The translations under genes and the position numbers were made by a program. The notes under the pieces were generated by a model, which worked only from the letters and a program-made list of their open reading frames with translations, did not search any database and had not been told where the DNA came from. A stretch of 64,000 bases of DNA from Gammaproteobacteria bacterium (GTDB lineage Bacteria; Pseudomonadota; Gammaproteobacteria; Eutrophobiales; Eutrophobiaceae), in contig JAURNY010000030.1 of the NCBI GenBank assembly GCA_030829955.1, positions 1 to 64,000 on the forward strand, written 5' to 3'. This document shows positions 5,529 through 8,436 of the stretch, one piece after another; position 1 is the stretch's first letter, and every line of letters begins with the position of its first letter.

Positions 5529-6824
5529 TCATGCGAGGTTATTAATTAATGCAGTTGCAAATTCACTGCATTTGACTTCTTTAGCACCATCCATGAGTCG
5601 GGCAAAATCATAAGTCACCGTTTTCTGCTCAATGGTTTTATCCATCGCGCTAATGACCATATCTGCTGCTTCAGTCCATCCCAGATAACGCAACATCATT
5701 TCGCCTGATAAAAGTAGTGAGCCTGGATTAACCTTATCTAAATTAGCATACTTGGGAGCGGTGCCATGTGTAGCTTCGAATATCGCATGACCCGTGTCAT
5801 AATTTATATTGCCTCCAGGTGCAATGCCAATACCACCCACTTGCGCTGCTAGTGCATCAGAAAGATAATCGCCATTCAGGTTCATTGTTGCAATGACGTC
5901 AAAATCATCTGGTCTGGTGAGAACCTGTTGCAAGGTAATGTCGGCTATCGCATCTTTGATAAGAACTTTGTCATCTTGCATGGCTTTATCCATTTCTTCC
6001 TGTGCTGCATTAGCGCCGTCCTTGGAGCGAGTGCGTTCCCAGGTATCCCAACTATAGGTATTTTCTGCAAATTCTTTTTCTGAAAGTTCATAACCCCAGT
6101 TGCGGAATGCGCCTTCCGTAAACTTCATAATATTGCCTTTATGCACGAAGGTGACACTCTTACGATTATTTTGAATCGCATATTTTATTGCAGCACGCAC
6201 CAGTCTTTGTGTTCCCTCTTCTGAAACCGGTTTAATACCAATACCACAACTTTTGGGGAATCTAATCTTTTTATAAAAGTTTGGAAACGCTTCATTGAAA
6301 TATTCAAGAAAACGCTGGTTATCATCACTGTTCGCTTCAAATTCAATACCTGCATAGATGTCTTCGGTGTTTTCTCGAAAGATCACCATATCAACCAACT
6401 CAGGCTTTTTAATTGGTGAAGGAACACCTTTAAACCAGCGAACTGGACGTAAACAAACATACAGATCCAGAATTTGTCTTAGTGCGACATTTAATGATCT
6501 TATTCCACCACCTATAGGTGTGGTAAGTGGCCCTTTGATAGCAACAAGATATTCACGACATAAATCTATGGTTTCATCCGGCAGCCATTTACCGGTTAAT
6601 TGATTTGCTTTCTCACCGGCATAGACTTCCAGCCATTTTATTTCTTTTTTACCGCTATAAGCTTTTTCCACGGCCGCATCTAGAACACGTTGTGATGCTT
6701 TCCAGACATCAGGTCCGATACCATCGCCTTCAATAAATGGAATTACCGGAGTATTTGGAACCTGCAATTCACCATTTTTAATACTTATTTTTTTACCGCC
6801 GGCGGGTATATTACTTTTAGTCAC
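5529..6824 (-). CDS. icd: NADP-dependent isocitrate dehydrogenase
   Basis: TCA-cycle enzyme converting isocitrate to 2-oxoglutarate and CO2 with NADP. The protein has 431 residues (E. coli 416; the extra is mainly N-terminal). Substrate-binding residues are in [13 protein letters not shown]; Ser110 here corresponds to E. coli Ser113, the residue phosphorylated by AceK, so the target site is intact. NADP specificity is indicated by Lys358-Tyr359 (GTAPKYA) and by Tyr405 and Arg409 (VTYDFAR), matching E. coli K344, Y345, Y391 and R395. The start is GTG, with AAGGAG about 8 bases upstream. It is the first gene of an icd-aceK transcription unit and diverges from metZ. A TATAAC at 6850-6855 on the minus strand is a possible -10. 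Confidence 0.98.
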
Positions 6825-6903
6825 TCTTACTACTCCTTACTTCTGTAAGTTATAATGCCCAGTTTAGCTCTTAAATGAATTAACAAAAAGTGTCTTTATC
6901 TAT

Positions 6904-6932
6904 TTGACAAAAAAATTAATATTCACTATTTT
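6904..6932 (+). promoter_or_regulatory. Candidate sigma70 promoter for metZ
   Basis: A consensus TTGACA at 6904-6909 is followed after 17 bases by TATTTT at 6927-6932. The predicted transcription start near 6939 coincides with the first base of the SAM-II-like aptamer, which supports the assignment. The implied untranslated leader of metZ is about 305 nucleotides. Confidence 0.6.
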
Positions 6933-6938
6933 GATTTC

Positions 6939-6990
6939 TGCGCCGATTTGGAATCAGCTTGCGGGCGCATAAAAAATACCGCTAAAGAGA
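6939..6990 (+). promoter_or_regulatory. SAM-II-like riboswitch aptamer in the metZ leader
   Basis: The segment reproduces the pseudoknot plan of the SAM-II (metA motif) riboswitch. P1 is six Watson-Crick pairs, 6939-6944 with 6964-6969. Loop 1 begins with GATTT (6945-6949) and ends with TTGC plus one base (6959-6963). Eleven A-rich bases (6970-6980) lead to GCTAAA (6981-6986). The TTGC pairs with GC-T-AA to form P2a, leaving T6983 unpaired as in SAM-II. C6955-G6989 and T6954-A6990 take the places of the distal pseudoknot pairs. The spacings (one base after TTGC, eleven bases before GCTAAA) equal those I recall from the structurally solved SAM-II RNA. The downstream gene, metZ, is a classic SAM-II target. 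SAM-II is known mainly from Alphaproteobacteria. Confidence 0.72.
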
Positions 6991-6991
6991 C

Positions 6992-7030
6992 AACCTGCTT
7001 TAGCTAAAGCTGACGCGGGTTTTATAATTT
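6992..7030 (+). terminator. Terminator-like expression platform after the aptamer
   Basis: AACCTGC (6992-6998) can pair with GCGGGTT (7015-7021), with one G-U pair, and is followed by TTTATAATTT. An alternative helix joins GCTAAAG (6981-6987), which is the 3' core of the aptamer, to CTTTAGC (6998-7004); this would act as an antiterminator. Binding of ligand would hold GCTAAA inside the pseudoknot and free the terminator strand. The T-run is interrupted, so termination may be partial. Confidence 0.5.
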
Positions 7031-7091
7031 ATGGATATTGTAAATATTGGGAAAGTACATGACTAAATGGATTTAGGAAATAGGGCTTAGC

Positions 7092-7174
7092 AGGAGTAAG
7101 AACCGAAGAGTACGGAGCAATGTTTATCAGGACATTTATTGACGTATTTTCCTTGAACTCCGTGTCTCCTCAAG
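7092..7174 (+). promoter_or_regulatory. Second structured element in the metZ leader
   Basis: AGGAG (7092-7096) is complementary to CTCCT (7166-7170), and ACGGAG (7112-7117) to CTCCGT (7158-7163), so the two helices nest. A competing local hairpin joins CTTGA (7152-7156) to TCAAG (7170-7174). I do not recognise the class. The metZ Shine-Dalgarno (AGGAAG near 7232) is not part of these helices. Confidence 0.3.
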
Positions 7175-7245
7175 TAATTGAATCAGGCTGTTACTCTTGA
7201 ACTATAATTTTTTAAAACGCATAAGCGTATATAGGAAGTCGAAAC

Positions 7246-8436
7246 ATGACTGATAAAAAACAGTCCGAATATGGGATTAATACCAAAGCGATTCGCACAG
7301 GCCATATGCGCACACCAGAAAATGAGCATAGTGAAGCGATTTTTCCGACATCCAGCTTTGTATTCGACAATGCTGCACAAGCTGCTGCGCGTTTCAAAGG
7401 TGATGAACCTGGCAATATTTATTCTCGTTTTACCAATCCCACTGTCAGGACGTTTGAAGAACGTCTGGCAGCGATGGAAAAAGGTGAGCGATGTATCGCG
7501 ACCTCATCCGGAATGAGTGCGATACTTTGCACAATATTAGGCTTGCTAAAGCAAGGCGATCACATTGTGTCATCTCGAAGTATATTTGGTACAACAGTGA
7601 ATATGTTTGGAAATATTTTTCCCAAATATGGCATTGAAACCAGTTTTGTTAATATGACTGATTATACAGCATGGGAATCGGCAATAACCAAACAAACACG
7701 AATCCTGTTTCTGGAAACACCTTCGAATCCATTGACGACGATTGCTGACATTAAAAAACTGGCGGCTATTGCCCATCAACATGATGCGCTATTAATTGTT
7801 GATAATTGTTTTTGTACTCCAGCTTTGCAGTTACCTATCGATCTTGGCGCCGATATCGTTATTCATTCCGCAACAAAATATCTTGACGGTCAAGGGCGAT
7901 GTTTGGGTGGTGCAATTATCGGACCGGATAAATTATTAGCTGAAGACATTTATGGCTTATTACGTTCCGGTGGTGCCAGTATGAGCCCTTTCAATGCTTG
8001 GGTTTTTCTTAAAGGTTTGGAAACCCTATCAATCAGAATGAAGGCGCATTGCGAAAACACTGGAAAGATTGCTGAATGGTTAGATATGCAAGATTTTGTT
8101 GAGAAAGTTTATTATCCGGGGTTGGTGAACCATGAGCAGCATGATTTATCATGTCAGCAGCAACGTGGCCACGGAGGTATTGTGAGTTTCGTCGTGAAAG
8201 GTGGACAGGAAAAAGCCTGGCAGATAATTGATAACACAGACATCTTTTCCATAACTGCTAATCTCGGAGACACTAAAAGCACGATTACTCATCCTGCAAC
8301 AACAACACACAACAAGCTGAGTGATGAGCAGAAACTTGAAGCAGGCATTTTACCTGGTTTGGTACGTTTATCTGTTGGTTTGGAAGATGTTGAAGATTTA
8401 ATAAATGATTTAGAACAGGCGCATTCGAACAGTTAA
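7246..8436 (+). CDS. metZ: O-succinylhomoserine sulfhydrylase
   Basis: PLP enzyme of the Cys/Met-metabolism family that makes homocysteine directly from an activated homoserine and sulfide. It has 396 residues, with PLP-binding YSRFTNPT near 59-66, SSGMSA near 88, the aspartate in IVDNCF near 184-189, and the PLP lysine Lys211 in HSATKYLDG. The N-terminal GINTKAIRTGH and the overall length fit MetZ rather than the longer MetY. O-acetylhomoserine or methionine gamma-lyase activity cannot be excluded by reading. An AGGAAG lies upstream of the ATG. The gene is preceded by a SAM-II-like leader, consistent with repression when S-adenosylmethionine is plentiful. It converges with sga across a shared terminator. 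Confidence 0.9.
   Translation: MTDKKQSEYGINTKAIRTGHMRTPENEHSEAIFPTSSFVFDNAAQAAARFKGDEPGNIYSRFTNPTVRTFEERLAAMEKGERCIATSSGMSAILCTILGLLKQGDHIVSSRSIFGTTVNMFGNIFPKYGIETSFVNMTDYTAWESAITKQTRILFLETPSNPLTTIADIKKLAAIAHQHDALLIVDNCFCTPALQLPIDLGADIVIHSATKYLDGQGRCLGGAIIGPDKLLAEDIYGLLRSGGASMSPFNAWVFLKGLETLSIRMKAHCENTGKIAEWLDMQDFVEKVYYPGLVNHEQHDLSCQQQRGHGGIVSFVVKGGQEKAWQIIDNTDIFSITANLGDTKSTITHPATTTHNKLSDEQKLEAGILPGLVRLSVGLEDVEDLINDLEQAHSNS

Follow-up and report, generated by a model that had tools for sequence, protein, structure and literature searches.

The window, the whole 64,000-nt stretch of DNA that was analysed, carries icd (positions 5529 to 6824) and, in the opposite direction, metZ (7246 to 8436, forward strand). 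The naming of metZ as the target gene in the first-pass annotation was borne out by two NCBIfam equivalog models for O-succinylhomoserine sulfhydrylase, both over their cut-offs (NF006003, 651 bits against 522; TIGR01325, 541.8 bits against 510). Between these divergent genes lie, all on the forward strand, a sigma70-type promoter (6904 to 6932), a SAM-II aptamer, a predicted intrinsic terminator (6992 to 7023), a spacer, and a conserved block near metZ. The promoter comprises TTGACA (6904 to 6909), 17 nt, and TATTTT (6927 to 6932), a position that places the transcription start at stem P1 of the aptamer. A promoter scan alone performed at chance level (2 found against 1.7 expected). Among 85 distinct related leaders, 67 keep TTGAC ahead of the aptamer, as do 25 of 27 leaders inside the window's family. 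The promoter/P1 arrangement of the earlier reading is supported.

Class and structure of the metZ leader

Positions 6930 to 7006 of the forward strand gave a full-model match to the Rfam family SAM_alpha (SAM-II, RF00521), with 42.9 bits against a gathering threshold of 36 and an E value of 2.5e-6. When the whole 64-kb window was scanned by cmscan with the 4227 families of Rfam 15, this was the sole match above cut-off, and no other family exceeded its cut-off between the terminator and metZ or elsewhere in the window. A covariance-model search for SAM-V (RF01826) returned no match in 6800 to 7150, even at an E value of 10, and the long-loop SAM-II model (RF01726) reached 16.5 bits against a cut-off of 44 in the metZ leader under permissive settings, and both identities were rejected. 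The proposal of a SAM-II-type riboswitch before metZ, for which a comparison of the SAM-II and SAM-V models had been suggested, is therefore upheld by the SAM_alpha match, the conservation seen in relatives, and the P1 covariation. A second riboswitch between the terminator and metZ was also rejected, there being no Rfam match over cut-off; the spacer (7030 to 7180) contains instead an intergenic repeat in degraded form (GGAAATAGGGCTTAGCAGGAG; 7076 to 7096 and around), which is better kept at the same place in several relatives.

Every element listed in the first-pass annotation was present where it had been placed, including the 6-bp stem, the loop running from GATTT to TTGC, the 11-base spacer, and GCTAAA, in that order. 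The P1 5' strand, TGCGCC (6939 to 6944), pairs with the 3' strand, GGCGCA (6964 to 6969). The loop L1, GATTTG (6945 to 6950), which we take from published SAM-II structures to be the triplex strand of the SAM site, is nearly invariant among 59 sequences. The P2 5' strand, TCAGCTTGC (6954 to 6962), contains TC of P2a and TTGC of P2b, the latter (6959 to 6962) being followed by one base before the P1 3' strand; 11 bases, TAAAAAATACC (6970 to 6980), then lead to the P2 3' strand, GCTAAAGAGA (6981 to 6990), which includes GCTAAAG (6981 to 6987), carries the unpaired U at 6983, and would also form the antiterminator 5' arm. All SAM-II core nucleotides are present. P2a is reduced to two pairs in the window, T6954-A6990 and C6955-G6989, and this distinguishes the leader from the 60% of SAM-II RNAs in which P2a has 5 bp (PMC6061858).

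Covariation was counted over the named P1 and P2 pairs in an alignment of 59 matches from relatives and the wider class. Five of the six P1 pairs showed changes on both sides. For the whole structure, the number of cells in which both sides had changed was 43, compared with 15.6 in shuffles; none of 500 shuffles reached 43, and none of the slid controls came near the score. P2b (TTGC with GC-U-AA) and the bulged U, which had been expected as the unpaired T at the ligand site, were invariant in all 59 sequences and are hence silent on covariation; P2a was paired in 94.9%, and both-sided changes were seen at one of its pairs. The covariation looked for in relatives was thus obtained for P1, and the invariant P2b is without such support. 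Riboswitch class, structure, and target gene of the metZ leader are supported by these computations.

Predicted terminator, possible strand exchange and alternative modes of control

The predicted terminator consists of a hairpin (6992 to 7021) and a U-tract (7020 to 7023), with a folding energy of -15.4 kcal/mol and a z score of -4.2; folded as 6991 to 7022, the hairpin was more stable than 200 of 200 dinucleotide shuffles. The inner part of its 5' arm, CTTTAGC (6998 to 7004), is the exact complement of the P2 strand GCTAAAG and is common to terminator and antiterminator. Of the 27 family leaders, 23 have this segment unaltered; with G-U pairs allowed, it is kept in 47 of 85 distinct leaders, against 5 expected from shuffles, in agreement with the first-pass claim that GCTAAAG would break the hairpin. 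The terminator 3' arm, AAGCTGA (7007 to 7013), is complementary to TCAGCTT (6954 to 6960) of the P2 5' strand, and in 16 of 27 family leaders this complementarity was greater than in shuffles (p<=0.05); the two segments may form a second antiterminator helix. Because both P2 strands are complementary to terminator arms, four strands are able to exchange partners. Nearest-neighbour energies, calculated without the pseudoknot, were -29.0 kcal/mol for the terminated and -23.7 kcal/mol for the antiterminated form, values consistent with an OFF switch governed by the order in which the strands are transcribed.

Judged from its sequence, the leader is most likely a SAM-dependent OFF switch that acts by attenuation. 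Transcription would start at or just before P1. At low SAM, GCUAAAG (6981 to 6987) would pair with CUUUAGC (6998 to 7004) and remove the terminator 5' arm, so that RNA polymerase would continue into metZ. At high SAM, the P1/P2 pseudoknot would lock GCUAAAG in P2, CUUUAGC would be free, the hairpin would form, and transcription would stop near 7023, yielding an RNA of about 85 nt. SAM as the ligand and the OFF direction would follow from what is already established for SAM-II, and it is highly probable that the leader is a SAM-II riboswitch by which metZ is switched off at the level of transcription.

The U-tract contains only four U, followed by AUAAUUU (GGGTTTTATAATTT / UUUUAUAAUUU / GGGUUUUAUAAUUU), and a strict terminator scan did not call the hairpin because the tract is short. 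In a relative of the same genus the U-tract is replaced by GGGCATAAG / GGGCAUAAG, and the hairpin is lost in two other family genomes (G019 and G029). The short tract and these losses suggest that intrinsic termination in the lineage may be weak or in the process of degenerating, and the efficiency of termination may accordingly be modest.

The short or missing U-tracts of the closest relatives are also what would be expected if the aptamer were retained and control were no longer, or no longer only, exerted by intrinsic termination, passing instead to Rho, RNA decay, or later pairing. Such pairing, acting after the terminator in read-through RNA, would join 6985 to 6997 to the block at 7183 to 7198 (TCAGGCTGTTACTCTT; conserved as CAGGCTGACTCTT), which is conserved among close relatives on the forward strand and is partly complementary to this P2/terminator strand. 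The two segments co-vary at the genus level (68 of 20,000 permutations), in a test chosen post hoc on data already inspected, and genus g15 has a different matching form, in which ACAGGTGGTCTCTTG pairs with AAGAGAACCAACCTG at -16.8 kcal/mol. The pairing is suggestive. However, the duplex does not reach significance in the window by itself, 32 of 200 shuffles being as good, and the switching strand of the terminator persists in most family leaders, so that control shifted away from intrinsic termination is unlikely.

Another explanation would be a SAM-V riboswitch or a relative of the class whose ligand has changed (to SAH, for instance), the pseudoknot and SAM site being common to SAM-II and SAM-V (PMC6061858). 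SAM-V (RF01826) likewise has the same core fold and a short P2a; in contrast, it is translational, with the SD in P2a. Its failure to match the metZ leader, the SAM_alpha score above cut-off, the complete SAM-II core, and the SAM and methionine synthesis genes found as targets make this explanation very improbable. An element acting at the DNA level or bound by protein, or a chance resemblance, is scarcely credible: nothing in the analysis spoke in its favour, and it is contradicted by the paired P1 changes across genera, by family-wide conservation, and by the E value of the covariance model. Attenuation by a SAM-II OFF switch thus stays the preferred reading.

The metZ leader is a good but ordinary representative of a known class, and its mechanism is textbook. 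As in the SAM-II class (RF00521), a predicted P1/P2 pseudoknot, a conserved loop, and the GCTAAA strand are combined with a promoter a few nucleotides before P1, a predicted terminator between P2 and the gene, and a methionine gene downstream; it differs in its two-pair P2a and in the approximately 220 nt between terminator and gene. In the SAM-II RNAs described by Corbino 2005, the promoter lies immediately ahead of P1 and terminators follow P2 (PMC1273637). SAM-II riboswitches are mostly transcriptional (PMC6061858), and terminators are their usual platform, dominant in alpha- and betaproteobacteria (PMC2258182), so the terminator platform does not have the special interest that was at first attached to it. 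By description, the leader resembles the metZ SAM-II leader of S. meliloti, an alphaproteobacterium, in gene, in a predicted terminator-type OFF switch, and in a short attenuated RNA (RZ RNA), a species of ~100 nt being up in high-SAM medium (Scheuer 2022, PMC9373788).

Regulon and host range of SAM-II

SAM-II is mainly regarded as alphaproteobacterial, and the first-pass annotation accordingly proposed either transfer of the regulated gene or a wider range of the class. The wider range was borne out: in the window's family, 45 of 53 genomes carry SAM-II RNA (31 of 33 good ones), as do 118 of 369 sampled Gammaproteobacteria genomes representing 86 of 271 genera, with less than one chance match expected at the threshold, and 18 of 40 genomes reached via named MetZ relatives. 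Matches in 31 of the 369 genomes were also above the stricter Rfam family cut-off. The carriers include Leucothrix pacifica, a Gallionella, a Nitrococcus, a Nevskia, and a Thiohalobacter, and the RNA was not found in the tested Methylobacter, Acinetobacter, and Vreelandella genomes. Recent transfer from alphaproteobacteria is not supported: both the RNA and its gene neighbourhood extend across the family, the divergent icd-metZ arrangement recurring beside the leaders of G004, G012, G020, G024, and G029, and among the 80 best MetZ relatives every title that gives a class gives gamma- or betaproteobacteria. The wide distribution suggests long residence in these groups. SAM-II is common in gamma- and betaproteobacteria, and in many gammaproteobacteria it serves as a standard methionine control, not a rare import.

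Earlier accounts of the range differ. Coxiella and Bordetella appear among SAM-II sources in a figure legend of Corbino 2005 (PMC1273637); gammaproteobacterial SAM-II, and hence the host group of the window, is listed by Barrick and Breaker 2007 (PMC2258182) as sporadic and perhaps acquired by transfer; SAM-II was stated to be most common in alpha-, beta-, and gammaproteobacteria (Meyer 2009, PMC2704228); and SAM_alpha was given only for Rhizobiales and Rhodobacterales (Leyn 2014, PMC4239095). The last study called metXZ new, an element of pseudoknot plus terminator before betaproteobacterial metX and metZ, which resembles the present leader, by description, in its location upstream of metX/metZ and in having a terminator behind a pseudoknot built from conserved segments, of which the published alignment has six. 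Since SAM_alpha matches precede metX, metZ, metK, and metH in the Gallionella order (53 of 120 genomes; L143 to L172), the metXZ element, equated by gene position and description, is probably SAM-II; if so, the merger would supply the missing ligand for a betaproteobacterial RNA regulator.

MetZ (at least 58% identity) was encoded downstream at 42 of 56 sampled loci. Other targets, assigned by profile in the examples examined, were metK, metF, metX, metH, MetY, nitrite/sulphite reductase, and rhodanese, all belonging to sulphur/SAM metabolism. Second SAM-II copies in relatives (L141, L197, L140) stand before a nitrite/sulphite-reductase-like gene (L141, Pfam NIR_SIR; L197 begins alike) and a rhodanese, an extended sulphur regulon. 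At L014 (612 to 690, reverse strand) and L150, SAM-II overlaps the ribosome-binding site and start codon (GCTAAAGAGGAGAAGTTTCATG), and a translational form thus seems to exist in the same family.

A broader reading would join distribution and leader architecture: SAM-II would be a widespread, largely vertical methionine regulator of gamma- and betaproteobacteria that has been mistaken for sporadic or separate, and the family leader would work in two stages, with four-strand exchange between P2 and terminator followed by read-through pairing of 7183 to 7198 with the P2/terminator strand. Taken as a whole, this reading is doubtful, with a small chance of being correct.

Tandem SAM-II and SAM-V units elsewhere in the genome

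Tandem SAM-II/SAM-V has been reported in Pelagibacter, and published SAM-V riboswitches come from alphaproteobacteria and Bacteroidetes. SAM-V was found in only 2 of the 369 sampled Gammaproteobacteria. The window's genome (G000) contains, on contig C21 (42963 to 42776, reverse strand; L137, 4964 to 4777), a second SAM-II, which scores 25.8 bits (under the cut-off) and has a terminator of its own. Behind it comes a SAM-V of 38.7 bits, against a cut-off of 41, overlapping the ribosome-binding site of a gene that encodes 50 aa. The same order occurs in three more genomes, at L138 (2155 to 1973, reverse strand; G035), L196 (101 to 284, forward strand; G575), and L173 (954 to 801, reverse strand; G289), with weak members in the SAM-II of L173 (20.9 bits) and the SAM-V of L138 (26.9 bits). 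Between G000 and G035, P1 (TAGGT/ACCTA, TTGGT/ACCAA) and P2 (GTAG/CTAC, GTGC/GCAC) have changed and still pair.

The 50-aa protein encoded after the tandem (core EFYxKxxPKSGFRV; L199, L200, L201) matched no Pfam family and was present in only 2 of 53 family genomes, and twice in G575. In G575, riboswitches and gene form a 416-bp unit that is duplicated with 97% identity next to an element carrying a transposase, itself present in two identical copies, and the tandem riboswitch/50-aa gene unit may be mobile.
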